Shown here: one piece after another, positions 3,000 through 62,451 of the stretch
Layout: the number at the start of each line of letters is the position of its first letter
Position numbering within the stretch: position 1 is the first letter of the stretch
Source of the DNA: Zychaea mexicana
Taxonomy: Eukaryota; Mucoromycota; Mucoromycetes; Mucorales; Lichtheimiaceae
Reading direction: 5' to 3'
NCBI RefSeq assembly: GCF_025766255.1
Contig: NW_026516799.1
Location: forward strand, 1 to 64,000
DNA length: 64,000 nt
Program-made: the position numbers and the translations under genes
The notes under the pieces: generated by a model
Told to the model about the DNA's origin: nothing
What the model saw: the letters and a program-made list of their open reading frames with translations, nothing else
The model's database searches: none

Positions 3000-4175
3000 G
3001 CACGTTCTTTTCACCGCAGTTGCTCGTCGACATAGTATGATAGAGACACCAGAATCAATATCGCCACGTTCGTCTGCTCGTCCTTATTCTACTGCAGTGA
3101 ACGGTTCGTTTCTTTGGAGTACTCGATGGTGAGATATCGTCGTGCGGGTATCGCTCCTTATTTTTAGCTGACTTTGGTGTATATATATAGGATACACTAT
3201 GAGTGTACGTGTAGCGTTTCTGGCTGTTGCTCGTCGACATGACATGGCAGAGACACCAAACCACCAGCGTCACGTTCGTCTGCTCGTCCTTATTCTGGCA
3301 CACTAAGCGGTTCGTTATTTGGAGTACTGGATGGCGAGATATCGTCGTGCGGTGATCGCTCCTTTTTTAGCTGACTTTGGTGTGTATATATGTGATCCGC
3401 AATAAAAGGTGCACGTGTAGCGTCCCTGGCTGTTGCTCGTCGACATGATATGGTAGAGACGCCAGACCACCAGCGTCACGTCCGTCTGCGCGTCCTGATT
3501 CTGGCACACTAAGCGGTTCGTTATTTGGAGTACTGGATGGTGAGATATGGCCGTGCCGAAATCGCTCCTTTTTTTGGCTGACTTTGGTGTATATATATAG
3601 GATACACTATAAGTGTACGTGTAGCGTTTCTGGCTGTTGCTCGTCGACATGGTATGGTAGAGACACCAAACCACAAGCGGCACGTTCGTCAGCTCGTCCT
3701 GATTCTGGCACACTAAGCGGTTCGTTATTTGGAGTACTGGATGGCGAGATATCGTCATGCGGTGATCGCTCCTTTTTTAGCTGACTTTGGTGTGTATATA
3801 TATGATCCGCAATAAAAGGTGCACGTGTAGCGTTTCTGGCTGTTGCTCGTCGACATGACATGGCAGAGACACCAGACCACCAGCGTCACGTTCGTCAGCT
3901 CGTCCTTATTCTGGCACACTAAGCGGTTCGTTATTTGGAGTACTGGATGGCGAGATATCGTCGTGCGGTGATCGCTCCTTTTTTAGCTGACTTTGGTGTG
4001 TATATATATGATCCGCAATAAAAGGTGCACGTGTAGCGTTTCTGGCTATTGCTCGTCGACATGACATGGCAGAGACACCAAACCACAAGCGGCACGTTCG
4101 TCAGCTCGTCCTGATTCTGGCACACTAAGCGGTTCGTTATTTGGAGTACTGGATAGTGAGATATCGTCGTGCGGG
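3000..4175. repeat. ~205-bp tandem repeat array, about 6 units
   Basis: Same unit as the array at 960-1925. The GGTTCGTT landmark recurs near 3097, 3309, 3514, 3719, 3925 and 4130. The last three units are nearly identical to each other, suggesting recent local amplification or homogenisation. Confidence 0.9.
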
Positions 4176-4854
4176 AATTGCTGCCTTTTTGTTTTGCCAG
4201 TTTACCTGATAAATAAAAAGAATAGACACGTACCGCCATGGCTGATGCTACTTGAACAAAAGCTAATGCAACATACTTGACGTTGTCATTTCATTATACG
4301 CGCCCTCGTTTAACGTAAAGAAAAAAGTGGCGTGTGTTGTATAGACTCGTGCAAGTTTTGCTGCTTTGATGTTGTAGTGGTGCCGCAGTGCATGCAAGTC
4401 ATTTGCGATTGTAATTAACTTTGACCGTTATTATTATGGCGTGCCGTAGCTTCCGTTTGTTGTAACAGTTGTTGCTGTAGTGCTGCTATTGCTACTGGAG
4501 TACGTTGCTGTCCTCGTCAAATGGCTAAAAGTTTCAGCAATTGCTACTAGTAAAAGAGAGTAAACCATTCGCCATCCCAATGCCACTGCTCCTCTAGCAA
4601 TTAACATCCCAGAAACTAAATACCTTTTTTTGCAACCGCTCTTGCTTTAATATGTATAGTATAAAAAGCGGTAGTAAACGAGTGTGTTGAAGAGTAAAAA
4701 AAAAAATAAGTAATAAAAGAAGTGGAGCTAGCTCTCCTGCTATTTTGCTGTCTTCCTCACCACTTTCTCTTAATTTGATTGGCTAAATCCCGGGGTCAGG
4801 CCGGGGTCATCCGTCGCCACTTGAATTGAAATGTCGGGGTCATCGGGGTCACTC

Positions 4855-13839: not shown

Positions 13840-14400
13840 CATTTTCCCACCCATTCCCTTTTCGTTACCATGGTTCCCTTTTCGTTACCATGGTTCCCTT
13901 TTCGTTTCCGCGTTCCCTTTTCGTTTCCGCGTTCCCTTTTCGTTTCCGCGTTCCCTTTTCGTTTCCGCGTTCCCTTTTTGTTCAGTCTTGTCATTTTCCC
14001 ACCCATTCCGTTTTCGTTCACTGCTTGTCATTTCCCCCCCCCATTCCCTTTTCGTTCACTGTTTGTCATTTCCCCCCGTTCCCTTTTCGTTTCTACGTTT
14101 TTCTTTTCGTAACCATGGTTCCCTTTTCGTTTCCGCGTTCCCTTTTTGTTCAGTCTTGTCATTTTCCCACCCATTCCGTTTTCGTTCACTGCTTGTCATT
14201 TCCCCCCCCCATTCCCTTTTCGTTCACTATTTGTCATTCCCCCCAGTTCCCTTTTCGTTTCTACGTTTTTCTTTTCGTAACCATGGTTCCCTTTTCGTTT
14301 CCGCGTTCCCTTTTTGTTCAATCTTGTCATTCTCCCACCCATTCCTTTTCCGTTACTATGTTCCCTTTTCGTCACCGCGGTTCCCTTTTCGTCCTCTTCC
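13840..14400. repeat. Pyrimidine-rich minisatellite
   Basis: A ~17-19-bp unit (TTCCCTTTTCGTTTCCGCG and variants with GTTACCATGG or GTTCACT) is repeated across the block. A higher-order segment of about 130-140 bp is duplicated (13950-14110 versus 14130-14290) and contains C-runs of 8-10. This produces a 310-codon Phe/Pro/Ser frame that is a by-product of the repeat, not a gene. The array abuts the 3' end of helicase gene C1. Confidence 0.9.
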
Positions 14401-14424: not shown

Positions 14425-14560
14425 TGCTTTCCCCTGCTTAAACGTGTCCGACATAGATTTAAAAATCTAGTCATTGACCAAATAAAGTTTTGGTCACTGT
14501 TTGGTCACTGTCATTTCACTTTTCCCTGCTTAAATGTGTCCGACATAGGTTTATAATAGA
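14425..14560. repeat. Duplicated ~40-bp edge motif (GTGTCCGACATA)
   Basis: CCCTGCTTAAACGTGTCCG then ACATAGATTT (near 14432) recurs as CCTGCTTAAATGTGTCCG then ACATAGG (near 14524), with GGTCACTG repeats between them. The same GTGTCCGACATA occurs at 29150, just before the B3 repeat, and a relative occurs at 7965. It marks edges of repeat families. Confidence 0.6.
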
Positions 14561-17500
14561 GAAAGTAGAAAGGGGTAGCAAAAAGATATACAATATACTG
14601 ACCTTTTGGGGTATGGCAAATCGAACATGTCTGCGCGTTTGGATATCCAAAGCAGGTATACGAGTAAGGATCTAACTCGGATTGGATTGTCTTGCGTATA
14701 CATACACTGTTGTTTATCTTCCGTCGGAAACCTGCCCAAGTGCTTTCGTCGTCGTTATTAGGGTCACTGTGATTGGACATCTTACTTGCCAACAGGACAC
14801 AAAAAGCGACTCTTCCATCACGTCCGGCACGTCCTGTTTCTTGGGCATAATCTAAGACTGAGGCCGATCCGGATACATGTACAACAAGACGGATTGACGG
14901 ATGATCAACGCCAGTGCCAAACGCGTTTGTTGCAACAACAATTGATGTATTGCCATTGAGAAAATCTTGAGTGATACGGATCTTGTCTTCTTTGCTGTGG
15001 CCACCATGGAATGCCTGAACATTGTTACCGAGATACGGCGAAAGGTGTTTGCGTAACATTAAAGTCCATTGCTCAACAGATTCGCGGCTGGTACAATAGA
15101 CTATGCATGAGTCGTTTGGTGCATTCAATGTTTCTGTCATCCATTTCAATGTAGCCTTGCGCTTGTCATTCCCTGCGTCTTCGATTATGTACTTGAGGTT
15201 CTCGCGCACAGTGCATGCTCGGATTACATTGAAGCTGGTACCAAGGCAAATGGATAACTCTTTCTCCATACTAACAGGCAAGGTGGCAGTCAAGCAAATC
15301 AAAGGTACTTGCACAGTACGCAACCATAATAGTTGATGCATTGATTGGCGGTAATCGGCAGACTGAACAGCAAGATGAGCTTCGTCCAAAACGACCCGGG
15401 AAATCTTTCCACTGCTATGCGCAAGTCGAAGAAAAGCAGCAAAACGACTAGTCGCAGCCTGTTCGACGGAAACCAATAGAAGCCTCGGTAGCTGTTGTAC
15501 TGCTGACATGCTGTTTGTGTACTCGCCACATGAGACATTCAGGTCTTTGACGCGTTTGATGACGTCTGCTGCAAGGGCAACGAGAGGCAGAACAAGAACC
15601 GTCGTTTGATTTTCCTTCATTAGCGGCGCAAGGTATACCGATGTTTTTCCACCACCGGTCGGAAGCACAACCAAAAGATCATTCTGTCCCAGTAAAGCAT
15701 GTTGAATTGCGACTGCTTGTGCCGAAGACTTGAACGATGCCATAGGCGCATTCAATGACAGCCGTAACGCTTCCAAAGCCTGTAGACCGATGTCTATGCA
15801 AAAAGAAAAGCATGCATAAATATAACAGTTCTCATACAAAACAACATCTTTTACACACATACACGTATATACATATATGATAACATTAAGAAAGAATATA
15901 TTATACATACTATTGTCAACCACGTCTGTACAATCCGGAGACAGATCCGGTGCTGGCGGCGTATTCACCAAGCGTCGTACTGTATTCTCAATTGTTAATT
16001 ACTGTTCAAACTGCAACAATGCGACTCGTTCACGGATAGCCTGGTTCTCTCGATGATATGCAGCCACAGCTAGATCTTGTTTTGAGGCGGCTGTTCGCAT
16101 TGCTTCCGTCACTGCAGAGAAATCATAAATGCCTGGTCCGACACCTATAAAATATGTAAAACGGATATGTAAATATAAGTATAAAATTTCGATATGAGGA
16201 TAACACATATGTGCGATAAAAATGAAGCAAAAAATGACACCAAAAGCAAACATACCCAGCAAATCCTGCCACTTTGCAGACAAATGATAATATTCGAAGG
16301 CAGTTGTTGCATCAAGATGTCGTGGGTCCTGATCGGAACGCGAGTAAAACCGACCAGCAACTTCGCTGCTATGACCAGCTTGAAGGTCAGCCAGAGTACT
16401 GTCTATAGTCGGTAATTTCATGATATGTTGTCTTGCGAAGGCGATGGATATATGCCGGTACTGTTGCCATGTAACGCGGTAACCTAACTCCGTATTCCAT
16501 ATTCTTGAAAAGGTACCTCGTAAGACATCAGGTGACACCGGTTCTCCATGGCGTATTACAAGAGTAGAGCTGGTAACAAAGGATATGATTCCATCGGGAG
16601 ACGTATGGACGTGTCCAACAAACATACTATTACAAAAAGTTGAGGAATGAGTAAAGGTTCGCCAATGTATATTTTGATATTTGATGTATGGTATATGATA
16701 AACATGATGACTACTGACCTTTCGATAGGTTTCACAAAAACCAAGTACTTGACAAATGCGCGCGATAAGATAGGAGGTAAGACCTGGCAACGATTTGATC
16801 AAGACCTTTTAGTTCGCGAGTCTTTTGATAATGAGTGACGATCATGATAGACTGGTATGCATTTGACCAATATAAATGGCGGTCGGCGTCGTGCGTGTTT
16901 CTTGTCAGTAGCGTAGCGATCTCTGAACATCGCGCTGTCTGCCCGTATGTCATATGCATCGCGACGAAAAGAAGCATTTGCAAATGCTCAACCCTCTTGA
17001 TGTATGTTGTAATAGCAGCTCTGTTCCAGTCAACGTCGACACCATCGATACCGTCGATGTATGTTTCGTGTAATTTGGGATCGTTCAATATTTTACGCAA
17101 TACATACTGATAATGGCTGTGCAGGTCGTTGCGCTCGTCGTACACGAATGAATACCCGATTGTGGTATTGTTCGGCTCATCATACAGAGCAAGGTAGGAG
17201 TTGTTACTGATGCCCAATATCACATCGAGACTGATACCGTGTGTCAGCATGGCTATTTCGTTTTCAATTTTCTCATAATGCTACTAGCAAGATGTGATAT
17301 ATGATGGAGCTTGACAGTTTCACACGAGTCAGCCAAAGTCACTCGGTAAAGTTTCCTTTTGCGGACCAGAATATGTAAGGCAAGCGGGAATCATTTGCCA
17401 CTGATGTCGATGCAAGACGGCTTATTTCAACAAGTGCACCAAATGGAGTTGCATGGGCATCCATGAGGAAAGGAGCATACGTTTGTTCGAGTCTTCAGAA

Positions 17501-19037
17501 AAACAATAGTTAAGTTACTGTAAACGTCATGGAATATTTGTTCATGATAAAAAAATGTATATAGACATGGATACTTACTTCTCTAAAGCATGATCGACTT
17601 CGGACGGCTGCATGATGTCACATAAGACCACGAGTCGTAACCAATACTTCAATTTTGCGATGACCGGGGTTATATCACGGGTAGGAACAAACTTGCCAGT
17701 GTAATCCAATGAGTTGATTATGAGGAACCGTATGAGCACGTAGCCAGAGGGAGGGGTGTTCAGCAGCTTTTTTTCCATGAGCGCGATCAACATCATTTTG
17801 TGAATTAACCGTCGTGCACTTGTATACTGCCGTTCCACATCTGGTCTTTTCGTTTCAGCGGTGGCAACAAGGACAAGAGATTCAACAAGACTGGTTATTG
17901 CGATAGGCGGAGACAGCAAATACAATGACTTGTTATACCTGGATCGGATCAAGAACAATATGAAATGTACACCAGTAGTAGCATACTTGTGGACGCTACC
18001 ATCGCCTCCTAGTTTCTGGAAACCAACCTTGGGCACTCGTTCCTGCGCACTTGTGAGCATATATTGGACGAAGAGGCGATGTTAGTCATTCAGACAAGAA
18101 GAATACAAAATAACAATATCAAATGAGAAAAGAAATTACAGTATACATACACGTCATGCATCAGTAAGCGCCGGACAAAGTAGTCCATCGAATCAATATT
18201 ATTGTGCATACAGTCAAAATACAATCGCACGGCCTTTATAACGTATTGCAGTATAGCGTCGCCTGTATCAACTGGTTTCATAAGGTCGACCAGGTCTTGC
18301 ATAGTCGCACCTATGAGAGAAACAAATTATATCAGAGCTTTTAGTATAGAATTCATTATTCAAAAGCGCAATATCATGACTAATTGAAGCAAACGGTTTT
18401 TCATCATTACCAGTAAAGCACCAATCGGCGACATAATGATTCCACTTGAGATGAGAATAAAACCAGCTTAGAAGGCGGTTGTCGCTGGTGATGGGCCTTC
18501 CTTCATCTGCAGTCGGTGGAGCAATCGAAGATCCAACATTCATGATTACTTGTTGCATAACTGGTGCTAACTCGTCTGAGACGTCAGCACAATCGTCGTT
18601 ACCACACGTGTCAGCATTCATCACGACCGTTGTGTCGTCCGCGCCATAGCATTCCTTCGTGTGCCGGTGCAAGTTGCTTATAGATGCTGCTGTATATGTA
18701 GCGGTACAGTGTATACAATGAAAAAGGTCGTCAGCGCCCCGTTCAATCACAATTTTCTCACCTATAAAACACAACAAAGCCAAGCATTTGAAATTATTAG
18801 TAGAGCAATATTAGCTTACTGTTCACTTTTAAACAAGGAAGGAAACAACAATATATAGCATGACACAAAAAAAAACGAAAAAGACTTACCATCGGGATAC
18901 GTGACAGTTGCATTCTTCTGATGGGCGATACGAACATGACGTTCACGATCGTATTCGCTAGGAAACAGAGCACCACATCCAGCATGGCTACATTCAAATG
19001 TACGCATATCAACAGGTGAGATGGGCGAGTTGGACAT
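14511..19037 (-). pseudogene. Zinc finger - tyrosine-recombinase-like - RecQ helicase, copy C1 (decayed)
   Basis: Eight exons can be drawn (minus): 19037-18890, 18761-18411, 18310-18153, 18042-17579, 17492-16719, 16626-16256, 16144-15911, 15793-14511, with GTAAGT/GTATGT-type donors and in-phase joins. Exons 1-2 encode two zinc fingers (C-x4-C..H-x4-H and C-x2-C..H-x3-C). Exons 5-6 carry tyrosine-recombinase-like motifs ARCSEI, YRHIS and GHSS-x6-Y. Exon 8 is a full RecQ-type helicase core: PTGGGKT, DEAH, TATLP, QETGRAGRDGR, then a Cys cluster (CFGY..CSICH). Breaks: single-base deletions versus copy C2 near 17272, 17340 and 16781, and a TAA where C2 has CAG (about 16001). The frame ends near the minisatellite, so the C-terminal domain seen in the plus-strand relative is missing. 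RecQ-like telomere-linked helicases of fungi are the closest known class; the recombinase assignment is my inference. Confidence 0.8.
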
Positions 19038-19544
19038 TGTAAAGAATAAGGATGTTATAAAGCGAAGCAGATAAGCGATGATAAAATGTAATGGAGTATG
19101 ATTAGTAAAATATGGCTTCATGACCGCGGCCTTTTATACTTTTTTTTTCTTTTTACAACAATGAGTAGAAGTCTCTATCCACTATGACAGTTCCATACAA
19201 CAGCTTATCAAGAAAGCGGCGATTACAAAGCAACGGGACGATTGGAAATAGAGGATCAGCTAGAAGCAAAAGTGGATTAGCGATAGCTATTATCGATAAA
19301 CTGTAATCTAATGACATCATTTCTCCTTTTTTTAGGAAAATAAGGGTAGAGGCGAATATGTGATGAGAAGTTGAATAGTAATCGATATGATCAACCATTA
19401 ATTGTAATTCGGTCAGCATGAAAAACAAATGAGAGAGGTTCGCCTAATGAGTCTAATAGTAGATATAGTCGACATACCATGAAACCAATAGTATCATAGC
19501 TGCAGTTTGTTTATTTGGGAAAATGGATGCAGTGAGCTTTTGAA

Positions 19545-19770
19545 AAAAAGGGTCGATCACAAAAGAGGGTCGATTAGTAATAAGAACGCTTGTAAATTGT
19601 GAATTGATTAGTAACAAGTTTTTACAAGAAAGGGTTCAGAAAAAAAAGTAGGGTTCAGAAAAAAAAGTAGGGTCCAGTTGAAAAAAGGGGTCAACAACTT
19701 GTGACAAATTTACGGGAATTAAGGGTCTGTGTGAAAAAGGGGTTTGTGCGAAAAAAGGGTCGGCTAATAT
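19545..19770. repeat. GGGTC / A-run interspersed motif cluster
   Basis: Between 19545 and 19770, GGGTC, GGGTT or GGGGTC motifs, mostly preceded by A-runs, occur about nine times in the same orientation (AAAAAAAGGGTCGATC, AAAAAAGTAGGGTCCAG, AAAAAAGGGGTCAAC, AAAAAGGGTCGG). It is repeated in copy C2 near 45383-45580. The regular G-strand bias resembles a binding array or degenerate telomere-like repeat; function unknown. Confidence 0.6.
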
Positions 19771-22700
19771 CAGACATGATCAACAAACTATTTATTATTG
19801 ACAACATAGCAGCAACTGTTATACAACACAAGTTCGGTATTTTCCCATAAGATTTGCGCCTTTCACTTTTCAGGGTGGCGTCGTTTACAATGCAAAATAT
19901 ACAGCAATGGGCCGCCAAGTAAAAAAAAACATAACTCGCGTAGATAAACGACAGCACCTGGACCACTTTGCGGCTGGACCTTCTTTTTTTAGTTCATCGC
20001 TTTCAATCTCATATACTGCAATTTACAACGCAAATTATTGTATCAATGTATACAAATCGAGTTGGTCTTGCATTTTTTAGAGCAAATGTATGTCCTATTT
20101 TACATGGGTAAAGGATCACGCAGCAGCAGTATAGGGTACCTCTCTGAACAACGCGTCATTCTGATTTATAAGCTGATATGAGGACCACTGTGCGGTATAT
20201 ATTATGCCTTTTCCAAGCACGTATACAAGTAAGGCAATATAATCATGGTGATCATATTTACTTTTGTTGACTGTCAGCAGCAGTATCATATGATAGATAT
20301 AGTATCAAGCTCTTGTTTCCTTCCTCATTTACAATGATTTGAATCGCAATATCGATGAAGCTAAGCATCATGATCAGCAGTGAAATCAACAACGTCATAT
20401 AAACATTGTGGTAATTGTAGACTGGATTCACATCAAAGAAAACAACAACGTCATAAAGTTACTGTAATAAGTTTAGACGTAGACAACAACAACAACGATA
20501 AAGAGATTGGTCTAATTACGCCATCGTAATGTATATCGATTCTCACATATAAGAGTGAATATGTAATAACCGTTACAAATTACAATAATAAAGTTTATAG
20601 TATAGAAGTACTACATCGTACGATACTGTTTTATGCGCTTCTTACTAATGCCACATACAACATAGCATGTGCACGATTCGGTAGTTTGCTTGGTACAGAA
20701 AAATTATGCAATTGGTACTGAGCTATTTTTGCTTGTACTTTTATGTTCTTTATACGGATAGGTGCATATGAAGATGGCGAGACCAGATTCAGACAACATC
20801 AACAAGATACTAATTATTCAATTAGATCAATTGCATCATTTCATTGATCTCATGAAGGATATGGATATCTCTGTTGAGTAAAAAGCAATTATCAACTTTT
20901 TGAATAATTACATATCAACTTGTTCTGTGTATAAAGATGCAAAGATTGTAGCGGTAATGATGTAGTTGTATATATGCATTTAACCTTATATTGATGTGGA
21001 AAAAGCCGAATGATATCATCTATAGTAGAATCTTATAACAGCGATCAACATGAGGTACTGATTATTCTTCACATTAGTTATTTCGATAACGACATCATTA
21101 TATCGATTCTTTCTGCTACATATATAGCATTTAATATGGTGGTATGCTTCAACATACTGCTGCGGTATAACTATTATACAGTATATAGGCGATTGCCGTT
21201 TTGTTTGAGCTGGTCTATTAAAAGAATTGGTTGAAAGGTATGTATCATATTTCACAAGAGATGTTTGCAAAATGACTATATGCAAAAAAACCATGACGAA
21301 AGTTGGACTGAAAATTGAGTATAGATAGATGCTACCGTTTTTTTTATGGGAGGGGGCCAGTGTTTTGAATAAAATTATTACAATTTGCAACAGTGAATCT
21401 TTATTCTTTGACGAAGTGTTCATCGTCAACAACAATGATACTCAATTTACAGTAGATGCCATCGTCAAAATGATCCAAGATTGCAAATTAAAATGAATTC
21501 AGAGCGCTACTATGAAAGATATGAAGTACGGAGAATTGAGAATTTGTTTTATACGTAGATGTAACATATAAAGATATATGTTAAGCACTGCTCTCGAAGC
21601 AACTTACTGCGTTATTTCTTTTTTTCAGGAGCATCGAACAATAATGAAATGGCCAACAAGGCATTGACGATGACGATTACGTTGGCCAGAACTTTAACTG
21701 CTAGTGATGTTGGTAGAGGAGGAAAAAGGTACTGGAAGTATTGTCGGTCACTGCTAGTTGACACACGGATATATAGATTTAGCATTCGCATTTTTTCTCC
21801 GTGAGCGCAAGCATTATTCAACTAGTTTGACAATTGCAAATGGCAAGATCGTGAAAGGGGCTCTTAATCCAAACAGCAATACCGAAAGTGAGAATGAAAA
21901 TTCTGTAATGCTATCATAATATGTATTATTGCTATTCTAACTTTCCTAATGTTTATTTTACTGTGCATCCATTTTTTTCATTTGAATGATATTGGCGTTA
22001 TATGACGGACGCAGATTGTCAAAAACAGAAGAATGCTCTTAGAATGATAATTACATGCGTTTATTTCTCATCCTCGCTGATCAATAAAGAAACCGTGTAT
22101 TGATAAATGTGAAAGGAGGTTTTATTGAGAGAGAGCCTAATACCCTTTTGTAACGCTATGTACTGAAAGAGCTGGTTTGGTGATGTTGACGGTATATAAA
22201 AATTGTTCTACTCTGCTTTATCTATTGTTAATAGAAGGTGTCGTGGTACTAGTTGTGCTTGGGACTTTGACCGCTTTTACAATTCCTGCAATCACAATTA
22301 TGTTTGTAGTTAGATATTCTGCAATGGTCGATTGGGATCTTACACTTGGCATGCTGTATACATTGACACAATGAAATGGGTAAAAACGTCTGTCCCTTAA
22401 GTCGCAGTATTTCAATAGCAGCAATTACGAATGCAGTGTATGGCTTTCAAACTTAATATCATGAACGGTGGTGTACGTCGTCAATTAGATCAAGGAGCAC
22501 GGATAAGCTGTGAATAAGGACTAACCACATTGACTGTTTCAAATTCAAAGTGTATACTTATATAATATGTTATAGTATACTTCTATATCGTTATGTACAT
22601 GCTGTCGTTTCATTGAGCACGATTAGCGATAAATCCGCTGGAGAAATGCTGTTATATATACATTACATTCACGACAGCATAATATTAATATTATTGGTAC

Positions 22701-22959
22701 AAGGTGTATAACCCTCTTATAGAATTCATCTATCATACATAGTCCACTGTGAATTGTGCTTATGCGCCGTTTATCTACATAGTGTACAGCTAGAGATAAA
22801 ACTATTATTGCATTGAATACGCTTATCATAGCAGTGTGATGTGAGAAGATATGTTTTGATAATATTGCATTTGAAGTAGGCTGTATTTGTGCTACATCAT
22901 ACTTTTGCTACATTATATATTGCTTTGTGGTCGCAACATGCATTTTTTATTACATCGTG

Positions 22960-23245
22960 TCTTACTACACCATCTTTGACTATGCCGTATTTCTACCACG
23001 TAGTGTTCTACTACATCGTCTTCAACTACGACGCATCTCTATTACGTCGTATTCTACTACATCGTATTTCTACCACGCCGTCTTTTACTACGTCGTCTTT
23101 TACTACGTCGTCTTTTACTACGTCGTATTTCTACTACGTCGTCTTTTACTACGTCGTATTTCTACTACGTCGTCTTTTACTACGTCGTCTTTTACTACGT
23201 CGTATTTCTACCACGTCGTCTTTTACTGCGTCGTATTTCTATTAC
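22960..23245. repeat. TACTACGTCGT minisatellite in C1 arm
   Basis: A 15-16-bp unit (TACTACGTCGTCTTT or CTACTACGTCGTATTT) is repeated about 15 times. The equivalent array in copy C2 (51895-52150) is shorter and more diverged, so the array has changed length since the duplication. Frames through it encode Tyr/Val/Phe-rich repeats that are not believable proteins. Confidence 0.85.
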
Positions 23246-23363
23246 CTCTTGTTTTTTATATGTCGTTGTCTTAAATATGATATGTACTGAGAATAGATAC
23301 TATGTATTCAACTTGAGATAGTGCACTAGTAATGAACAATATAGACGTATTTTTTTGAAAGGA

Positions 23364-23419
23364 TAATACGTCCGTATTACACAGATAAAAATACGATCGT
23401 ATTAATACGTCCGTATTAA
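23364..23419. promoter_or_regulatory. Cluster of TAATACG-N2-CGTATTA inverted repeats
   Basis: Three inverted repeats lie within 56 bp: TAATACG-TC-CGTATTA (23364-23379), AATACGATCGTATT (23390-23403) and TTAATACG-TC-CGTATTAA (23402-23419). They sit 22 bp upstream of the helicase ATG at 23442 and at the right end of the duplicated segment. In copy C2 the third site has changed in both arms (ATATG-TC-CATAT), keeping its symmetry. A recombinase site, an operator or an element end are all possible; this is inference from position and symmetry. Confidence 0.5.
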
Positions 23420-23441
23420 ATAATACGATTTCATTAATAAA

Positions 23442-26400
23442 ATGGACGTGCAAACTATATATGCAGACAACGAACGATTGACAGATCCAGCATTCCACGA
23501 CGCCCAGCGTACGATTGACCGGTAATTATCATGACACTTATTCTTTATTGTCTTTTTTTTTCATGCCAATTCTACTTTTATTGAAATACCTACCTTTCTT
23601 CTTTCTTATTAGTGAGCAAGCACGGGATATTATGTTCTGGCTTCGTGATGGTGTTCCCACTGCCATGAATATGTTTCAGGAAACTATGAGAACCGCAACA
23701 CTGGCAACAGGCGACCATCCACCCGAGCCCACCATCTTCATTGAAGATGACAACTACTTGTCCATGCAGTATCGTCCAACACGAGCTATTGTCAGTCTGT
23801 CCAGCCTCCAGATTGCTGCCTAGGATCTCCTCGTTAAATGTCGTGTGCAATTGGAGGAGCACGTGTTGCGAGGATATCGTTTGCCTGTCCCTTTTACCTC
23901 CACCAGTTGCAACATCGTCGACCAACAAGCTAGTGAAGATCCATCTGTTGATTTTTTCACTGCCTCGGGTAACCCTACTGCTGATCCTGCCTACCTCACT
24001 GCTTTAATGTTCCACTTGGCTACCCAGTATTCGGACGAGTTCATCTCCTATGTCGCACCCAACAGTACTCTAGTTTGGAAGCTCGACAGCCTCTATCGGT
24101 GGCTAAACCAAGCGCGAAAATTAATCATGATGATTATGGTCCTTGTCCATATTACCAGTGGCCAGCCAGCACGCGGTGAGGAACTCGCAGCCACCACCAT
24201 CCGATGTACTGCCCTTGGAGCCAAGCGTGGCATGTACTGGTACCGCGGCAAGATCATGCTTGTCCAATACTACTACAAGCGCCGTTCTCGAGGAACTGCC
24301 GACCGGTACATTGCTCGTTTTCTTACAAGAGAATTGAGTGATATTTTGCTGCACTATCTTGTCTTGGTTCGCCCATTTGAACGGTATGCATTACTTTGAT
24401 AACTTTTGGCTATTGCTGGTCGATGATTTGCTGAACTGTTGTTTCGAATTATTTCTAGGGTAGCGTTTTCGGAAACGCATAGTGGTGACAGTGCTGATGC
24501 CGGCGTTGCAAACTACCAGAACTTTCTCTTCGTCGCCAACGGCAACGTTGTCACGAGCAGAGATTTGAGCCGATCACTGTATGAGTATGTGTCATCTCAA
24601 CTTATTTATATGTTACCAAGAAAAATAAAAAAGTAAAACCCAACATCTACAAGAAATACTTACTTGTTTTCTTCTATTAGGCACCTGCGAACGTATGCCG
24701 GTGTTGGCCTTGGCCTCCAAGCATACCGCCAAGTTGCCACGTTCTTCATGCGCCACCACCTCCAACGCGGCCGTGCTTTCTTACAAAGCACAGAGGAAGT
24801 CGACAATGAACCCGACACTGGCGACAATGACGGCGTTGACGATCAACAACAGGACCAAGCGCGATCTGTCACTCGTGGCATTCGCCATGTCAATCCCGAA
24901 TTTTATGACTTGCAGGCAGCACACAGCAGTTCGGTTGCTGGCATGTTTTATGCTCGCACCACAAATGATTTTCGGTATTTGTCGTCGGAATCCATACATG
25001 AGTTTGACCTCTGTTCTCGTGAGTGGCAGGCCTTGTTGGGTATGTATCAACGTCGCTGTTCACATAAAGAAATAATAGATTACGTGATTAATTATGCAAA
25101 TGACAAATATATAGGCATTGATGACCATATTGCCGCACCCATACCCTCTCATCCTCAACAACAACCATCGCACCAACCGCATCAACAACCACCTCAACAA
25201 CAGCAACAATCTCTTGCCCTTGCTCCTCCTCTCTCACCGTTGCCTGGAATGGTGAACAGCTTGCTTGCCTAAGCAGCTGAACGATTTGTCGTGGCCATAC
25301 ACGAAAAAACAACCAAGAACATATCACCAGTCATTGAATACAAGCGTACGTTTTCTCTTATCCTCCTATGCCCTTTTCTCTGCTTTTTACTTATCTTCTC
25401 TCATCTTTATAGCCGTCCTTCCTGAGCATGTCAGTGGCTTGCGTCGGTTCCTCGGCAATGACTCTGCCTACTTTCGTTCCCTTGAACAGGGCCTTGCTCT
25501 ACCTTTGATTGTAGAGCGAAAATTGGACCTGCTAGTTGTCATGCCAACCGGCATGGGCAAAAGCGTGCTTTTCTCGGTTCCCCCTTTCCTGGAAAACGGC
25601 AAGCTTTCGGTCGTCATCGTCCCCTTAGTAGCACTGGTCAAGGACTACGAGCGTCGCTTGGTGCGAGCAGGTTTACGGACCGCATTGTGGCAATGTAAGT
25701 GTTTTTCTTTATGGAAAAAAAAAAGAGTATTGCTTTGTATTAGTATGCCATTTATCAGTTTAAACTCATTATCTTTACATTAATCAATATAGCCGGCGCC
25801 CCTACTATGCCCAACGCACAGGTGCTGCTGGCACCAGTTGAAGCTGTTGCCTCTGCCCCTTTTGTCCAGTTCTGCTTGGAGCATGAAAGCCGAATCTCCC
25901 GTTTTGTCGTCGATGAGTGCCACCTGGGCATGACATGGCTATCCTTCCGCTTCGCCATGGCCAAGCTCACTGTTCTATGCGCCATCCCTGTCCCTCTTCT
26001 CCTTCTCACAGCCACCATGCCGCCGTCCATGGAAGATCGAGCCCGTATCTTTTACGGCTGTAACTTTGCAACAATTCGCGCACAGTCCACATCGTGGGTA
26101 AACCTGTCGTACCAAATCCATCCCTTGCCCAGCAACATCGCCAACAATATCGCATTCAACACATTGGCAGAATCTTTGCGTGTTGTCTTTCCCAACGAAC
26201 GCAGTATTGTTTTCTGCAAGACGGTACAGGATGCCGAAACGCTCTTTGATGTTTTGAATGGTGGATATCAAGACTTGGCTCCACGACTTTACCATGGCCA
26301 GCTCCCAGAGACAGCCAAAGACGAGGCTCAAGACGGCTGGATGTCCGACGGCGGCATTATGGTCGCGACCTCGGCGTTCGGTATTGGCATTGATGCTCCT

Positions 26401-28328
26401 GATGTGTGGAAGGTGTTCCACTGGCGGTTACCTTACAGTTTGTTGGATTACGCTCAACAAACGGGTCGCGCAGGTCGTGACGGGCAAACTTCAGTGTGTC
26501 GGGTGTATTATGTCGAAGACAGAGAACGGAGCACCATTGAGAGAAACAAACAGAACCAGGAAGTCGAATCCAGCATCAGCGACGCAGAAGAGATGCTTGC
26601 GTTTGCAAAGGTAAAACCTAAAATTTAAAGAAGGAGATACAGTTGGGAGGTTAATCTATTTGCGTTTGCTAATATACAATCTTTTATAGTCCAACACATG
26701 CATTCGTTTCAAGTTACAGCAATATCTCGACGGTCGCCCATCCTTGAACTGTCTTGCCGACAGTGAAGCTGTGGAGTGTGGCATCTGTCACGACTTATCA
26801 CAACAACCACACCATGAATCTTCCTTGTCATTGTCTGTTCGGTCAGCCAATGCCCTGCAAACACAGACGCGGCAAGAAGTTCCATTTGATCTGCCTGCCC
26901 CTTCACATGTAAGTCAAGTATATGTTTTTGTAGCTTTATTGTTTAGAGGTTCAATTTTTACTCATCGTGTATATATTTTACTTGTCACACTTACCAGCCT
27001 CCAATGCAACGACGACGACAGCAATCACCACCTGCCCTCCACCCTGTTGCTGCCTTTGTACACGCGCAGGTTGAATGAAAGAAGTCCCGGCACACCTACT
27101 TTCTTTTGTATCTCAGCACCAAGTGCTCGTTACACAGTAAAAAAAATATCATTAAATACTACAGACGCAGGGCTATCAGATGATATAAATTTGATTCCAT
27201 AAAAGGCAATGGTGGTGATACAGGAATTACTCAAAAAACTGGAAATTTTATAGATAAAGTACAAAATATCTTCTACTATCTATCCTTTCCCTTTCTACTT
27301 CTTTTTGTACTAGGACCAGGCTAGTAGTCATTGTCATCTATATTATTATAAATAAACATAGCTTGATGTTAGTATCAGTAATATTAGCTTAGGTATTAAA
27401 GAATAATAAAGGACACTGTTTATGAGACACTTGTAGGCAAGTGCTTAGAATGATTACAATCATTCTAGAATTTCGACTACCGTCTCAAAGACCAGCTACA
27501 CCTTCAAAAAAATCAAAGACTTTTTCTCGGACCACCCCTATTTATAATGATCATTATCTTTTATTTAAAAATAAAATTTAAAAATTAAATTATATTTTAA
27601 GAATAAAAAAAATTATAATCAATAAATTATTAAACAGTCTTCTATGCTCAAGTTGGTTTTCAGCCCATTTCTCCTTTTTTGGTATATGTTTGAAACTCCG
27701 ACGTACCTTTTATGGGATTCAGTGACGTCAATTTTACTATATCGGGTATTTTTACGTTACACAGATTTACTTATATATATACTACTTATATACTATATAT
27801 AGTGCGCGCCGTGTTTTCTTTCATAGATCCGTTACACCTTACGACGATCATTCGCAGCACGACTACTGCAAAAGGTGCTTCACCAAGCATGGTTTATATG
27901 GCATGTGCCTCACCTATAAGTATGTAGCCTTAATACCAAGTTCTCGTATTTTCTTTTTTTTTTCTTTACTAACCTGCGTTCAATTATTCTGTACTTTGCT
28001 TCACAGGCGCTTAATGTGTTTCAAATGTGGCCTGCCATTCAATCATCCCCTCTATCACGGCAATGGTGAGGAATGCAATGCGCTGATCAGGAACGCTGTG
28101 TTGCCAGCCTGTTGGGCTATCTTTCAGAGCGAGGACACCGAGGATCAAGAGTGGTTAGTCGTTGCATACAACGCTATCCATCGCTCCAACCAGCACCAAA
28201 AGACAGATCCATTCCCGGCAACCAAGACAGCATTCGCTCAGTGGTTATCAGACAAGGATGACGGCAGCCATGTCAACAATGCGATGAAGCTATTTGATAA
28301 GATAGTTTCTGAGCTTCTTTCTTGTTAG
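23442..28328 (+). pseudogene. Tyrosine-recombinase-like - RecQ helicase fusion (third, divergent copy)
   Basis: Exons fitted by phase and splice signals: 23442-23521, 23613-24383, 24459-24584, 24681-25039, 25115-25345, 25413-25694, 25793-26610, 26690-26908, 26998-about 27078, then 27827-27919 and 28007-28328. Recombinase-like motifs: GQPARGEEL, YYYKRR, AYRQV and AHSS-x6-Y. Helicase motifs: MPTGMGKS (I), DECH (II), TATMP (III), QQTGRAGRDGQ (VI), then a Cys cluster ending CGICH. The last two exons encode Cys/His motifs (CKRC, CFKCGLPF..HGNGEEC), which I infer to be the C-terminal domain. Stops in frame: TAG at 23821 and TAA at 25270, both explicable as C-to-T changes, and TGA near 27076. It lacks the zinc-finger exons of the other copies, because the C1 duplication ends just after its ATG. 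The 27.1-27.8 kb gap may be an insertion or long intron. Confidence 0.75.
27090..27826. other. AT-rich stretch with paired hairpins inside the helicase gene
   Basis: The coding signal stops near 27078 and resumes at 27827. In between are two adjacent hairpins, CACTTG-TAGG-CAAGTG (27428-27443) and TAGAATGAT-TACA-ATCATTCTA (27446-27467), and a nearly pure A/T tract (about 27555-27640). No long frame. It could be a remnant insertion such as a solo LTR or organellar fragment. Confidence 0.45.
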
Positions 28329-34597: not shown

Positions 34598-37500
34598 CTA
34601 TACTGGCTCACTTGAAAATAACCGCAGTACTAGCTCATTATTTTCCACCTTTGCAAATTGTGATTTTGCGATTGTAGGGAGGAATCTGACACCATCGAAT
34701 GATGTATATAGTTTATGTGCAAATGCATCTGCATCTGCACCTCTATTATTCTCCAAAAGGTGGCGTGTAATGATAATATATGCGGCTCGGGATGCAAAGT
34801 TTGAGTATGGCCCTTTTTTAATTTGTATATACGCCACAACATTAATATCTGTTAGAGGTGGATATATGTTTAGTATAGCATCAGATGGAAGTGTGGTTGC
34901 CCTACTAGGTTTAACTACATTCTCCTATTTTAGAGCCATTTTTGTCATTGTTAGTATATCTATATATTCACAGTAAATATAAAGAATTATTGCTTACAGT
35001 AAATACATCGGAATTTCCCCACAAAAGTGTTCGAACGTCAACTGATTATGCATGTATCGAGGGCTTTTGAAACGGCTAGTATAAGTAACAGGGGTGCTAT
35101 CTTGATTGGATCGCCGGCGCGTACCATCTTGTTTACTTAGTTTTGCCCATATTTCCTTTGGAAGTTCATTCCGTAGGTATGTTATCATATCATCAGTAAT
35201 ACCATCTTGAGTATAATCAAGCACTGATGTAATAAAGGCCGTATTATTGAGGTACTGATCCAAGTAGTGTCTGTTAATAGGTACTGGCTGTAGATGAAAG
35301 GTACGATCCTCTATTAGTAGAGGAGTGGTTGTTGGTAAAAGAGAAGTTTCTAATCTCTCTATTGCACGATGACCTGAATGGACCTCTATCCATGTTTGTG
35401 TATCAAGTATAGCCGCAAAGTACTCCAAGTTGAATGGATGTTCTATGTATAGATCACCATGAAAGCTAGTAGTCCAGATATCTACCATAAAGAGCAGGTT
35501 TGATACAGGGCATGCAAACTTTTCAACTATACTTTTTGTCAAATCCCATTTTAAATGATGGGGTGGACGAGAAAATAGAGAGGAGACCAAGTAGGCCATT
35601 ATTGGATATGCAGAGAGCCGATCTAGGCGATACTTTAGATCACGTTGAATCTGAAGACTATTGATTGCATACTCAATAGCATCCATATACATGCTCCAGT
35701 AGGAAGCAATGTCATTAGATGTTTCCCAGTGTAGATATTGACGACATTCCCTACAAATACATATAATTTAATAAGAATCAATTATTTTTTGCCAATAAGT
35801 ATACATACTAGATATATAAGTATAACATACCAGACACGATGATGCACTGCATCAATATTTACTAATGCACTTGCAGTAGACATGCGAAGCTCTAACCGAG
35901 CACCCCAATTTCGGTTGCTAATTCCGATACATGAATCTTGGATAAAGCGCTAAGTAGAATCATTTAAGTTATTTCAGTATATACATTCAAAGTAATTATA
36001 TTCTAATAATCATAATGATAATACCTTATAAGCTCTCAAGGGTTGCCCCCCATTAATGAGCAGCTCTGGTTTGCAATCAATTCCAAAGCGGTAGTTATCT
36101 TGTCCAGGGTTGTAAAATGGTTGCTTTATCTTGTGGTATGCAACAATTTTTTTTATGCCTTGCATTGACTGTTCTTGTGGCAAAGACTGTCCTTTTACAG
36201 TATATTGAAAGCCTGATAGAGACTTCCAATTTGATAAAGGGTCATGCCTATAGTTACTTTTTGTCAATGTAACATCTCCGAGGAAGCGCCGTATGAAGTC
36301 TGCATGACCACCGAATGCACAGTCACTACCAGTAGCACTCCATAACCCAACTAAAGGGGTATGTGATACTAGATGAAACTCGAACCCTAAGTCAATCGTT
36401 GAGTCCCGAGGATTAACTGTATACCAATTAATATCCGAAAATGAACTGCCAAGGTCCAAGTGAAGGTCTTCATATGGATGCTTTAACCCTATTCCTTTGG
36501 TATAAAAGAAAAAGCCTTGAAACCGAGCTACCCTCCGATCTTGGCTACTACTAGTAATCGACCTCATAGTCTCACATAATTGCTGGCAATGTACTGGAGG
36601 GATATATGTACCATACAGATTATGATGACCTCTACAATTCTGCAGCCTATACCCATCAGTATGATATGAGATACCAAAGTTATTACAAATGAATGCAGGT
36701 AAGCATTGGTGCATCGCAGGACAGAGAACAAGGTCTACAAAGTCTGAGATAACCTCTGTAGTAATCTCTTTACTAGATGTCAATGACATATTATCACCAT
36801 ATAGTCTTGGAAAGTAGATTGAGGTCTACACAATATTGATATTAATATCTACATTCACTATTGATAGAAATATAAGATGTTGTAAAACATTTTACTATAC
36901 CTTGAACCTATTATTGTATCCAAACTCTGACCAAGTAATAGGTATGGAACTTTGTTTAAAGGAATGGATTTTCCACGTCGAGACCCTTGGTTAACAATGT
37001 AACTCATCGTTACTGTTTGTTTGATCTTGTATTTATGCGGACGAAGGGTTATTGAAAATGGACCGGCTGCAGGTATTATTTTTGTCTGGAAATCCATTGA
37101 GTCAATATTATAATGGAAATTCAGGTCTACTTGGCGGCTATTAGATAGTTTAACAGCAACCAGTAGGTTGTCCTCATCTTCAACAACAATGCCCGCAAAC
37201 ATTGCCTCTAGGAGTGCATATTCATCGAGCCCTTGGCATAGTCGAACAAATGTATTGAACGTTACAACCCGGTTTACTATATAATTAATAGCTATATATA
37301 TTAGTATAATATATCTATTAATGACAGCATAATATAATATATAATAACGTACAGTTTCGTATGTCCAAAATTCGCTCTTGGAACTGCATGTGTAGATTTT
37401 CTGGTTGATACCGATACATCGAGTTACGAATAACAGTAGTTGCTTCTTCATCTTCTAACTCATTTTCTTCAGATTCATCACTATCTTCATCAGTACTACT

Positions 37501-40464: not shown

Positions 40465-40933
40465 ATACTAATACATTTCAGCCATTGCATTACTGCTATA
40501 CCGCACAATTATAAGAAGGGGTGTGACTGCCATACTTCTGGAGTGTATGTTTAGACCAAAAATAAACTCACAAAAATAGTTTTCTATATAAGGCAGCTTC
40601 AGTGGCTATGTGACTGCTATTGCCGTTTTAGTATGTTGTTGCTATATATGGTAGGTATATGTACTGCAATTTCTAGTGCTTTAGCTACAATATTGCACCT
40701 TCTAGAGGTCTTAATTCACCTTAAATAAAGCCACTTTCAGTGATTTTTATACATCCTCATATGTAATGTCTAAAATAAGCAATGTGACTGTCTTTTATAA
40801 AAACATATTTAGATGTATATGCATCATATATATATACCTACAAAGTTTCATAGCAATAGCAATAATAATAGATGAGCTATGGTACATGAAAGGAGAGATA
40901 CTTAAGGATGGATTAACTAAAAAACACCTATAT
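40465..40933. other. No gene recognised
   Basis: Spacer between the tRNA-like gene and the left junction of duplication C2. No open frame with a recognisable motif. Confidence 0.35.
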
Positions 40934-43900
40934 ACTATGCATGAGTCGTTTGGTGCATTCAAAGCTTCTGTCATCCATTTCAATGTAGCCTTGCGCTTGT
41001 CATTCCCTGCGTCTTCGATTATGTACTTGAGGTTCTCGCGCACAGTGCATGCTCGGATTACATTGAAGCTGGTACCAAGGCAAATGGATAACTCTTTCTC
41101 CATACTAACAGGCAAGGTGGCAGTCAAGCAAATCAAAGGTACTTGCACAGTACGCAACCATAATAGTTGATGCATTGATTGGCGGTAATCGGCAGACTGA
41201 ACAGCAAGATGAGCTTCGTCTAAAACGACCCGGGAAATCTTTCCACTGCTATGCGCAAGTCGAAGAAAAGCAGCAAAACGACTAGTCGCAGCCTGTTTGA
41301 TGGAAACCAATAGAAGCCTCGGTAGATGTTGTACTGCTGACATGCTGTTTGTGTACTCGCCACATGAGACATTTAGGTCTTTGACGCGTTTGATGACGTC
41401 TGCTGCAAGGGCAACGAGAGGCAGAACAAGAACCGTCGTTTGATTTTCCTTCATTAGCGGCGCAAGGTATACCGATGTTTTTCCACCACCAGTCGGAAAA
41501 GCAACCAAAAGATCATTCTGTCCGAGTAAAGCATGTTGAATTGCGACTGCTTGTGCCGAAGACTTGAACGATGCCATAGGCGCATTCAATGACAGCCGTA
41601 ACGCTTCTAAAGCCTGTAGACCGACGTCTATGCAATAAGAAAAGCATACATAAATATAACAGTTCTCATACAAAACAACATCTTTTACACACATACACAT
41701 ATATACATATATGATAACATTAAGAAAGAATATATTATACATACTATTGTCAGCCACGTCTGTACAATCCAGAGACAGATCCGGTGCTGGCGGCGTATTC
41801 ACCAAGCGCCGTACTGTATTCTCGATTGATAGCTGCTGTTGAAACTGCAACAATGCGACTCGTTCACAGATAGCCTGGTTCTCTCGATGATATGCAGCCA
41901 CAGCTAGATCTTGTTTTGAGGCGGCTGTTCGCATTGCTTCCGTCACTGCAGAGAAATCATAAATGCCTGGTCCGACACCTATAAAATATGTAAAACGGAT
42001 ATGTAAATATAAGTATAAAATTTCGATATGAGGATAACACATATGTGCGATAAAAATGAAGCAAAAAATGACACCAAAAGCAAACATACCCAGCAAATCC
42101 TGCCACTTTGCAGACAAATGATAATATTCGAAGGCAGTTGTTGCATCAAGATGTCGTGGGTCCTGATCGGAACGCGAGTAAAACCGACCAGCAACTTCGC
42201 TGCTATGACCGGCTTGAAGGTCAGCCAGAGTACTGTCTATAGTCGGTAATTTCACGATATGTTGTCTTGCGAAGGCGATGGATATATGCCGGTACTGTTG
42301 CCATGTAACGCGGTAACCTAACTCCGTATTCCATATTCTTGAAAAGGTACCTCGTAAGACATCAGGTGACACCGGTTCTCCATGGCGTATTACAAGAGTA
42401 GAGCTGGTAACAAAGGATATGATTTCATCGGGAGACGTATGGACGTGTCCAACAAACATACTATTACAAAAAGTTGAGGAATGAGTAAAGGTTCACCAAT
42501 GTATATTTTGATATTTGATGTATGGTATATGATAAACATGATGACTACTGACCTTTCGATAGGTTTCACAAAAACCAAGTACTTGACAAATGCGCGCGAT
42601 AAGATAGGAGGTAAGAACCTGGCAACGATTTGATCAAGACCTTTTAGTTCGCGAGTCTTTTGATAATGAGTGACGATCATGATAGACTGGTATGCATTTG
42701 ACCAATATAAACGGCGGTCGGCGTCGTGCGTGTTTCTTGTTAGTAGCGTAGCGATCTCTGAACATCGCGCTGTCTGCCCATATGTCATATGCATCACGAC
42801 GAAAAGAAGCATTTGCAAACGCTCAACCCTCTTGATGTATGTTGTAATAGCGGCTCTGTTCCAGTCCACGTCGACACCATCGATACCGTCGATGTATGTT
42901 TCGTGTAATTTGGGATCGTTCAATATTTTACACAATACATACTGATAATGGCTGTGCAGGTCGTTGCACTCGTCGTACACGAATGAATACCCGATTGTGG
43001 TATTGTTCGGCTCATCATACAGAGCAAGGTAGGAGTTGTTACTGATGCCCAATATCACATCGAGACTGATACCGTGTGTCAGCATGGCTATTTCGTTTTC
43101 AATTTTCTTCATAATGCTACTAGCAAGATGTGATATATGATGGAGCTTGACAGTTTCACACGAGTCAGCCAAAGTCAACTCGGTAAAGTTTCCTTTTGTG
43201 GACCAGAATATGTAAGGCAAGCAGGAATCATTTGCTACTGATGTCGATGCAAGACGGCTTATTTCAACAAGTGCACCAAATGGAGTTGCATGGGCATCCA
43301 TGAGGAAAGGAGCATACGTTTGTTCGAGTCTTCAGAAAAACAATAGTTAAGTTACTGTAAACGTCATGGAATATTTGTTTATGATAAAAAAATGTATATA
43401 GACATGGATACTTACTTCTCTAAAGCATGATCGACTTCGGACGGCTGCATGATGTCACATAAGACCACGAGTCGTAACTAATACTTCAATTTTGCGATGA
43501 CCGGGGTTATATCACGGGTAGGAACAAACTTGCCAGTGTAATCCAATGAGTTGATTATGAGGAACCGTATGAGCACGTAGCCAGAGGGAGGGGTGTTTAG
43601 CAGCTTTTTTTCTATGAGCGCGATCAACATCATTTTGTGAATTAACCGTCGTGCACTGGTATACTGCCGTTCCACATCTGGTCTTTTCGTTTCAGCGGTG
43701 GCAACAAGGACAAGAGATTCAACAAGATTTGTAATTGCGATAGGCGGAGAAAGCAAATACAATGACTTGTTATGCCTGGATCGGATCAAGAACAATATGA
43801 AATGTACACCAGTAGTAGCATACTTGTGGACGCTACCATCGCCTCCTAGTTTCTGGAAACCAACCTTGGGCACTCGTTCCTGCGCACTTGTGAGCATATA

Positions 43901-44873
43901 TTGGACGAAGAGGCGATGTTAGTCATTCAGACAAGAAGAATACAAAATAACAATATCAAATGAGAAAAGAAATTACAGTATACATACACGTCATGCATCA
44001 GTAAGCGCCGGATAAAGTAGTCCATCGAATCAATATTATTGTGCATACAGTCAAATTACAATCGCACGGCCTTTATAACGTATTGCAGTATAGCGTCGCC
44101 TGTATCAACTGGTTTCATAAGGTCGACCAGGTCTTGCATAGTCGCACCTATGAGAGAAACAAATTATATCAGAGCTTTTAGTATAGAATTCATTATTCAA
44201 AGGCGCAATATCATGACTAATTGAAGCAAACGGTTTTTTATCATTACCAGTAGAGCACCAATCGGCGACATAATGATTCCACTTGAGATGAGAATAAAAC
44301 CAGCTTAGAAGGCGGTTGTCGCTGGTGATGGGCCTTCCTTCATCTGCAGTCGGTGGAGCAATGGAAGATCCAACATTCATGATTACTTGTTGCATAACTG
44401 GTGCTAACTCGTCTGAGACGTTACCACAATCGTCGTTACCACACGTGTCAACATTCATCACGACCGTTGTGTCGTCCGCGCCATAGCATTCCTTCGTGTG
44501 CTGGTGCAAGTTGCTTATAGATGCTGCTGTATATGTAGCGGTACAGTGTATACAATGAAAAAGGTCGTCAGCGCCCCGTTCAATCACAATTTTCTCACCT
44601 ATAAAACACAACAAAGCTAAGCATTTGAAATTATTAGAGAGCAATATTAGCTTACTGTTCACTTTTAAACAAGGAAGGAAACAACAATATATAGCATGAC
44701 ACAAAAAAAAATGAAAAAGACTTACCATCGGGATACGTGACAGTTGCATTCTTCTGATGGGCGATACGAACATGACGTTCACGATCGTATTCGCTAGGAA
44801 ACAGAGCACCACATCCAGCATGGCTACATTCAAATATACGCATATCAATAGGTGAGATGGGCGAGTTGGACAT
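40934..44873 (-). pseudogene. Zinc finger - tyrosine-recombinase-like - RecQ helicase, copy C2 (3'-truncated)
   Basis: Exons match copy C1: 44873-44726, 44598-44248, 44147-43990, 43879-43416, 43329-42553, 42460-42090, 41978-41745 and 41627-40934 (cut). Exon 5 is open throughout, unlike in C1. Recombinase-like motifs ARCSEI, YRHIS and GHSS-x6-Y are intact. The helicase keeps motifs I (PTGGGKT), II (DEAH) and III (TATLP) but loses IV-VI at the duplication junction. Two nonsense changes are visible against C1: TAT to TAA in exon 3 (near 44056) and TGG to TAG in exon 4 (near 43481). So the two copies are broken at different places and neither is intact here. Confidence 0.8.
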
Positions 44874-51894: not shown

Positions 51895-52150
51895 GCCATT
51901 ATTTATTACATCGTGTCTTACTACACCATCTTTGACTATACCGTATTTCTACCACGCAGTGTTCTACTACATCGTCTTCAACTACGATGCATTTCTATTA
52001 CGTCGTATTTTACTACGTCGTATTTCTACCACGCCGTGTTTTACTACGTCGCATTTCTACCACGCCGTGTTTTACTACGTTGTCTTTTACTATATGGTAT
52101 TTCTATTACGCCGTGTTTTACTACGTCATATTTCTATTACCTCTTGTTTT
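51895..52150. repeat. TACTACGTCGT minisatellite, copy C2
   Basis: Diverged counterpart of the array at 22960-23245, with units such as TACTACGTCGCATTTC and ACGCCGTGTTTTAC. Shorter than in C1. Confidence 0.8.
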
Positions 52151-52354
52151 TTATATGTCGTTGTCTTAAATATGATATGTATTGAGAATAGATACCATGT
52201 ATTCAACTTGAGATAGTGCACTAGTAATGAACAATATAGACGTATTTTTTTGAAAGGATAATATGTCCGTATTACACAGATAAAAATACGATCGTATTAA
52301 TATGTCCATATTAAATAATACGATTTCATTAATAAAATGGACGTGCAAACAATA

Positions 52355-52949
52355 TATTATTAAATGGTGGAAGCGTCGACGTCGATGGTAAAAGGAATCG
52401 GCAAAATGATCATGTGCGTTTGGAGCAAGAACAAAGACAAGAAAGGCCTTCGTTTTTACCACAATGCTATACCAACGAACACACACACGCGCACACATAT
52501 ATGTATATCTAATATGTACGTTCGTTCTTACCTCCATCTCACCATATATATTATAATTACGTGGTGATACCAACTTCATCTCGAATCGCTGTTACAGTTG
52601 TGTCTATTGGAATTGATTTGAGCAGGTTTGACAGTGACCGTTAGTATAAAAGTGCAGATGCTTATTTCTGCCGCAAATCGTAATTACTCTCCCTGTGCTA
52701 TTTACTACCGCTCCCCGTTCTCAATGAGCTTTACGATGTACAGATGCACTTTCATAGTTACCTTGTCTCAAGATGAATGGCAGACTATGTAGTTACAATG
52801 CTTTTTTTTGATCGCTGACAAAACATATACTGCTGCATTCAATTTTTTCTCCAAGTCCCTTTATTCTGTGCCTGCTTCCCTTCACCTATCTGACTTTCAA
52901 AAAAATTGAAAACTGGAGGGGGCCAAAGTTAAAGTCAGGGCAGAATAAG
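52355..52949. other. No gene recognised
   Basis: Sequence after the C2 right junction. The 137-codon minus frame (52166-52579) crosses the junction and has no domain. A small frame start (ATGGACGTGCAAACA) inherited from the duplication ends in TAA within nine codons, unlike at 23442. Confidence 0.4.
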
Positions 52950-62195: not shown

Positions 62196-62451
62196 GTTGC
62201 TCTCATTTCACTCCGAACAGAGAACACCATACCCTAATATAGCAATGGCAAATACATTTTCCGTTCTCCTTCCAAAAGAGGGCTTCTCGGAGGCCTCCAA
62301 TTTTGGTAGTGGCTTCTCCGATGGAAAGGCCTCCGTGGTGGCTCGCTCGGATCGATATAAAAGGAAACTGTCACTTTCATGAATAATAAAAGTATTGAAA
62401 GAAAAATACACCCTCTATTTTTCATCTATTTTATCTGCTTTTATCATAAAA

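Follow-up and report, generated by a model that had tools for sequence, protein, structure and literature searches.

The first 64,000 nucleotides of contig NW_026516799.1 of Zychaea mexicana (assembly GCF_025766255.1), called the window below, hold three copies (C0, C1 and C2) of a repeated gene in which residues like those of a tyrosine recombinase (YR) precede a RecQ-type helicase. The locus raises the question whether a recombinase and a helicase are joined here in one protein, and whether such a protein could mobilize the DNA that encodes it. Sequence conservation and structural modelling both indicate that the recombinase-helicase fusion is real. Our preferred reading, to which we give a probability of roughly two in three, is that these genes belong to the fungal OrsD-RecQ / telomere-linked helicase (TLH) family, that they carry a divergent YR, and that a single protein may move or rearrange its own repeat unit. 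The window corresponds to contig C42 of the assembly searched (50.3 Mb, 305 contigs).

A recombinase motif set ahead of the helicase

The C0 copy was modelled as a spliced gene with the following features. The counts refer to 14 diverse sequences and to 121 public relatives.

23442..26908, + strand: C0 gene, decayed YR-RecQ helicase (splice model), with a Cys/His stretch on to 28328
23442-23521, 23613-24383, 24459-24584, 24681-25039, 25115-25345, 25413-25694, 25793-26610, 26690-26908, + strand: eight modelled C0 exons, GT-AG introns
24172..24174, + strand: predicted YR box I Arg, in GQPARGEEL (R in 14/14 and 121/121)
24277..24279, + strand: predicted YR Lys, in YYYKRR (K in 14/14 and 121/121)
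24727..24729, + strand: predicted YR box II Arg, in LQAYRQ, with Q three residues before (R in 14/14 and 121/121)
24922..24951, + strand: predicted YR His and nucleophile Tyr, HSSSVAGMFY (in QAAHSS; His 120/121, Tyr 121/121)
25413..26610, + strand: RecQ-type helicase core, Walker A near 25556 and DECH near 25912
27831..28328, + strand: C-terminal region with Cys/His pairs, zinc-binding by eye

The His (24922-24924) and the Tyr (24949-24951) of C0 are spaced by nine residues. A corresponding set was located in C2 (GQTARCSEI, HYQKTR, QQYRHI and GHSS-x6-Y, between 42779 and 42178 on the - strand) and again in C1 (between 16944 and 16344, - strand), and in all three copies the YR domain stands ahead of the RecQ helicase. 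The helicase core itself was recognised by Pfam in C0 (DEAD, 1.2e-13; Helicase_C, 1.4e-12) and C2, and by Foldseek in the relative P0005. Thus, what the first-pass annotation had read from the letters of this DNA, namely a YR motif set upstream of the C0 helicase, a Q in place of the usual box II His, and the same set in C1 and C2, was found again residue by residue.

Conservation and selection

The residues R, K, R, H and Y did not vary among six sequences of this genome and three public proteins (nine in all), and remained invariant in the 14 more diverse ones (R172, K207, R295, H339 and Y348 in P0005 numbering). The 121 public relatives are what was left of 122 proteins after one with a short match was dropped. 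In the genome, the exon with box II and the H..Y segment gave at least 33 matches, the three window copies included, and 8 of the 33 had a stop within the match. Exon alignments of 32 distinct loci showed Lys in 31/31, H in 30/30 and Y in 30/30 of the covering rows; box I Arg was present in 30/31 (L018 has Q) and box II Arg in 24/27, where the C0-type rows L004, L006 and L007 seem to be misaligned. The 33 genome matches, the invariance in 14 sequences and the retention in 120-121 of 121 relatives together argue that the motif set is more than chance.

Ratios of nonsynonymous to synonymous substitution (dN/dS) were computed for 14 chosen pairs of genome copies, with several synonymous distances saturated and some stretches short. 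For the box I exon, the ratio was finite in 12 pairs, at 0.06-0.21 in 11 and 0.37 for C1/C2; for the H..Y exon it was finite in 13 pairs, at 0-0.21 in 12 and 0.6 for C1/C2. These values point to past purifying selection on the YR-helicase protein, seen in most of the compared copies, and the C1/C2 pair looks relaxed.

Predicted fold

With the AlphaFold model of a helicase-free relative (pLDDT, the predicted local confidence score, 67.7 overall), structures of Xer, Cre, integron integrase, lambda Int, FLP and type IB topoisomerase filled the top 35 of 50 VIA rows, i.e., the catalytic-domain fold of the superfamily was recovered; absence from the VIA list excludes no family. The helicase-bearing model (P0005) matched helicases only among the 50 best Foldseek rows. 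No recombinase came up when the YR sequences were searched against Pfam and PDB sequences, and the Pfam integrase model misses the domain. Residue conservation, profile comparison and modelled fold nevertheless support the view that a divergent tyrosine recombinase, with an R-K-(A/Q)-R-H-Y set, precedes the helicase. The YR-RecQ fusion proposed from the letters is upheld on the same evidence, and neither of the two outcomes named in advance as grounds for dropping it, a predicted structure lacking the YR fold or loss of the R and Y positions in homologues, was seen.

A known gene family

We place C0, C1 and C2, from their sequences, within the known fungal OrsD-RecQ / TLH family and not in a new gene class. 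A region search with P0001 recovered 189 proteins. Among the 120 listed, 76 carried OrsD (PF12013), nearly all had helicase domains and none had an integrase domain; named relatives came from Hortaea, Friedmanniomyces, Pyrenophora, Alternaria, Plenodomus, Cladosporium, Didymella and Penicillium. A profile search returned 580 proteins, and the single plant-named one among the 120 listed is probably a contaminant. The YR profile was present in 153/153 collected proteins, all of them found by searches with the YR domain. One of these (P0153, from Pyrenophora) is called telomere-linked helicase 1 by its source; it was recovered with the alignment A4, which includes segments of C0 and C2, and bears the motifs GQPARGPE, YHKG, GYREM and QAGHTSHVAGLVY. 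Both a RecQ-type core and homology to a named TLH were therefore found.

The N-terminus of C2 has two zinc-finger-like motifs and an OrsD score no better than shuffles. Genome searches for OrsD, DUF3504 and DUF3435 gave no match, but control genomes gave none either. No run of four TTAGGG telomere repeats was present in the assembly, and YR-exon matches showed no bias to contig ends (Kolmogorov-Smirnov P 0.24, 32 of the 33 matches).

A 2009 TLH paper reportedly announces a novel TLH-specific motif in its title. Reports of TLH genes at the ends of fungal chromosomes go back to at least 1998, and Ustilago UTASb is described as conserved core, OrsD domain, or both (PMC10532341). A 2024 paper still calls TLH function unclear (PMC11893274). 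No report of a recombinase in TLHs was found in the literature searched, which covered few subscription journals, and there the recombinase half of this known family appears to have gone unrecognised. The suggestion that YR plus RecQ had no described class appears to hold for the combination and fails for the gene family.

Copies, termini and mobility

All three window copies are decayed. Two in-frame stops (TAG at 23821-23823 and TAA at 25270-25272) interrupt the otherwise open spliced C0 protein; copies of C0 occur on contigs C158 (99%) and C27 (95%), and both lack the first stop. About 760 bases split the Cys/His-rich end of C0 from the rest and are absent from these sister copies. The upstream flanks of the C0-type copies on C42, C158 and C27 differ. 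The other copies and the C1-type terminus are listed here.

14511..19037, - strand: C1 gene, two zinc-finger-like motifs, YR and RecQ helicase; decayed by a frameshift and a stop
40930..44873, - strand: C2 gene, a C1 duplicate whose helicase is truncated at 40930; carries two in-frame stops
44873-44726, 44598-44248, 44147-43990, 43879-43416, 43329-42553, 42460-42090, 41978-41745, 41627-40930, - strand: C2 exons
19038..23462, no strand assigned: C1-type unit, 5' flank, which runs to the terminus ...GGACGTGCAAAC and then A/T-rich bases; recurs at C42:52357, C114:52003 and C206:1247
52300..52362, no strand assigned: C1-type terminus on the C2 unit; adjoining sequence present without the unit on C72

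C1 and C2 are 97% alike over 7.7 kb, and the C1 5' flank is collinear to the terminus twice in C42, and in C114 with nested insertions. The ATG at 23442 lies inside the terminal bases (to ~23462) of the C1-type repeat next to C0. This end recurs at three other places and the C158 and C27 copies begin differently; the ATG at 23442 is not the native start of C0, and the gene start first assigned there was given up.

Beyond the C1-type terminus, unrelated DNA follows at each of the four loci (window 23462, C42:52357, C114:52003 and C206:1247). For three of the four, this DNA occurs elsewhere without the unit: on C158 and C27, as sequence within exon 1 of the C0-type gene; on C119 and C211, just upstream of an exon that belongs to another YR-helicase gene; and on C72. 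Dispersed copies and one precise, recurrent C1-type end thus partly support mobility, as judged from sequence. They give partial support to the site-specifically integrating element that the first-pass annotation had imagined; a second end, a crossover core and a full empty/filled pair were not found. As only one end is known, we make no claim of a simple two-ended insertion. No element ends were found in 8 kb round two near-identical copies, and the copy on C242 is an internal fragment.

Two direct repeats on C158 (14660-16495 and 28225-30060; L039, L126), at least 1836 bases long and 99.6% identical, flank a YR-helicase unit, the second running to the contig end. A tandem array could explain them, as could an element end or homologous recombination.

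Several other features accompany the copies. Zinc-finger-like frames on C158 (L039:2898-3553, - strand) read away from the C0-type gene, in the divergent arrangement of C1 and C0 in the window. In comparison with C1, the C2 unit is interrupted by DNA with an open frame (49437-50228) that by eye looks like another transposon. Just inside the C1-type terminus, a TACTACGTCGT-like unit forms short tandem repeats (22951-23245 and 51912-52150), and a GTTCCCTTTTCG-like unit is repeated just past the C1 3' end (13854-14392). Satellite arrays of 200-206 bases stand at the window start (968-1919, 3019-4190) and downstream of C0 (30911-32038, 33130-33677), with similar arrays after the C158 copy; three open frames (34994-37454, - strand) adjoin them. 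Further on, and judged by eye, one frame resembles a Gypsy-type retrotransposon reverse transcriptase with RNase H (58289-59956) and another a Harbinger-type nuclease (62383-63426). Elsewhere in the genome, PF00589 phage-integrase-type frames (L129-L134) are perhaps DIRS-like, and the 13 matches include no YR-helicase locus.

Proposed mechanism and alternative explanations

We hypothesize that the YR domain, together with the N-terminal part of the protein, would bind a specific DNA sequence. The YR tyrosine would then cut one strand, form a 3'-phosphotyrosyl link and rejoin the strand to a partner duplex, while the attached RecQ motor might unwind or branch-migrate the junction. The outcome would be a single protein that moves or rearranges its own repeat unit. 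Catalysis, substrate, the part of the helicase, and spread by transposition over ordinary recombination are what we infer here, and catalysis and transposition seem the likely reading of the sequences and models. YR-helicase proteins are present in several Ascomycota and in the genome of the window. A wider proposal, which we rate slightly below an even chance, is that TLHs as a whole are recombinase-helicases, i.e., YR elements whose cutting and rejoining of DNA takes place at or near chromosome ends, and which move themselves and reshape subtelomeres with a built-in motor.

A number of observations weigh against the preferred reading. Three residues before the box II Arg, 81 of the 121 relatives have A, 31 have Q and 3 have H, and C0 with its Q lacks the His or Lys expected there in the superfamily, although this position varies among tyrosine recombinases; the Arg, Lys, box II Arg, His/Trp and Tyr residues of the superfamily are all present. 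Type IB topoisomerases, too, have R-K-R-H-Y and lack the box II His. Confidence is low in the H..Y segment of both models, Foldseek alone placed XerA first for the helicase-free model at only E 0.4, and the larger profile reached only P 0.0026 in the profile comparison. Six PF00589 loci from this genome, used for a further comparison, gave no support (P 0.25 and 0.63); these loci match the Xer profile (P 6.6e-9), and the profile built from them is thin. Neither a second end, a target duplication, a crossover core nor a complete filled/empty pair was found, and no displaced left flank lay beside the unit for the C0 and C2 targets (window) or for C119, C72 and C158 (also retrieved loci). The window copies are broken. 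Long segmental homology (98.9% over 8 kb between two contigs) permits spread by ordinary recombination.

The main rival is a topoisomerase-like host activity, in which the YR/topoisomerase IB fold serves nicking-closing or telomere recombination that aids chromosome ends while the gene stays put. Human and variola topoisomerase I were among the VIA matches, the residue set is, as noted, that of topoisomerase IB, and a TLH-type helicase is described as upregulated in Ustilago telomerase-negative survivors (PMC10532341). The highest Z scores, however, went to Xer and Cre rather than to topoisomerases, and many decayed, variable copies with a recurrent terminus and unrelated flanks resemble an element. 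We consider this host role unlikely. Somewhat less likely again is a YR retained as an inactive DNA-binding module, with homologous recombination, subtelomeric or ectopic, as the means by which copies spread. The segmental homology and the 1.8 kb direct repeats round the C158 unit speak for it; against it, R, K, R, H and Y stayed invariant amid divergence, and an inactive module would need none of them. A coincidence of motifs, in a helical region before the helicase unrelated to tyrosine recombinases, would fit the empty Pfam and PDB searches and the weak Foldseek score but is very improbable in view of the VIA fold rows, the profile comparison and the conservation.

If the self-moving recombinase-helicase is the right reading, the recombinase half would supply TLHs with a biochemical activity open to test, might account for their repeats and variability, and would suggest how TLH genes may move or rearrange DNA.

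Comparison with known systems

The fungal TLHs (UTASa/UTASb of Ustilago, TLH1 of Magnaporthe) share a multicopy RecQ helicase with the window genes, and OrsD in most of the listed relatives and the YR motifs of P0153 extend this likeness. Unlike the YR domain seen here, no recombinase is mentioned in the accessible parts of published TLH descriptions. Xer/Cre-type tyrosine recombinases have the fold and R-K-R-H-Y in common with our domain, whereas here the box II His is mostly A or Q, a RecQ helicase is fused, and the Pfam integrase model does not respond.

KolobokH and Academ transposons also carry a RecQ helicase. The Academ transposase is of the DDD/E type. KolobokH is confined to fungi and has a DDD/E transposase as well (PMC9587614, PMC3627910). 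In contrast, no DDE-type transposase family was matched in C0 or C2 (Pfam, E up to 10). Cryptons, Starships and DIRS elements are likewise eukaryotic elements that use tyrosine recombinases, and to our knowledge they lack a RecQ helicase. Nine YR sequences gave no DUF3435 or DUF3504 match (E up to 10), although the Pfam integrase model also misses this domain; C0 and C2 have no reverse transcriptase, unlike DIRS; and a Crypton is a YR protein without the helicase that is present here. A recombinase-helicase fusion would extend the known eukaryotic YR elements.
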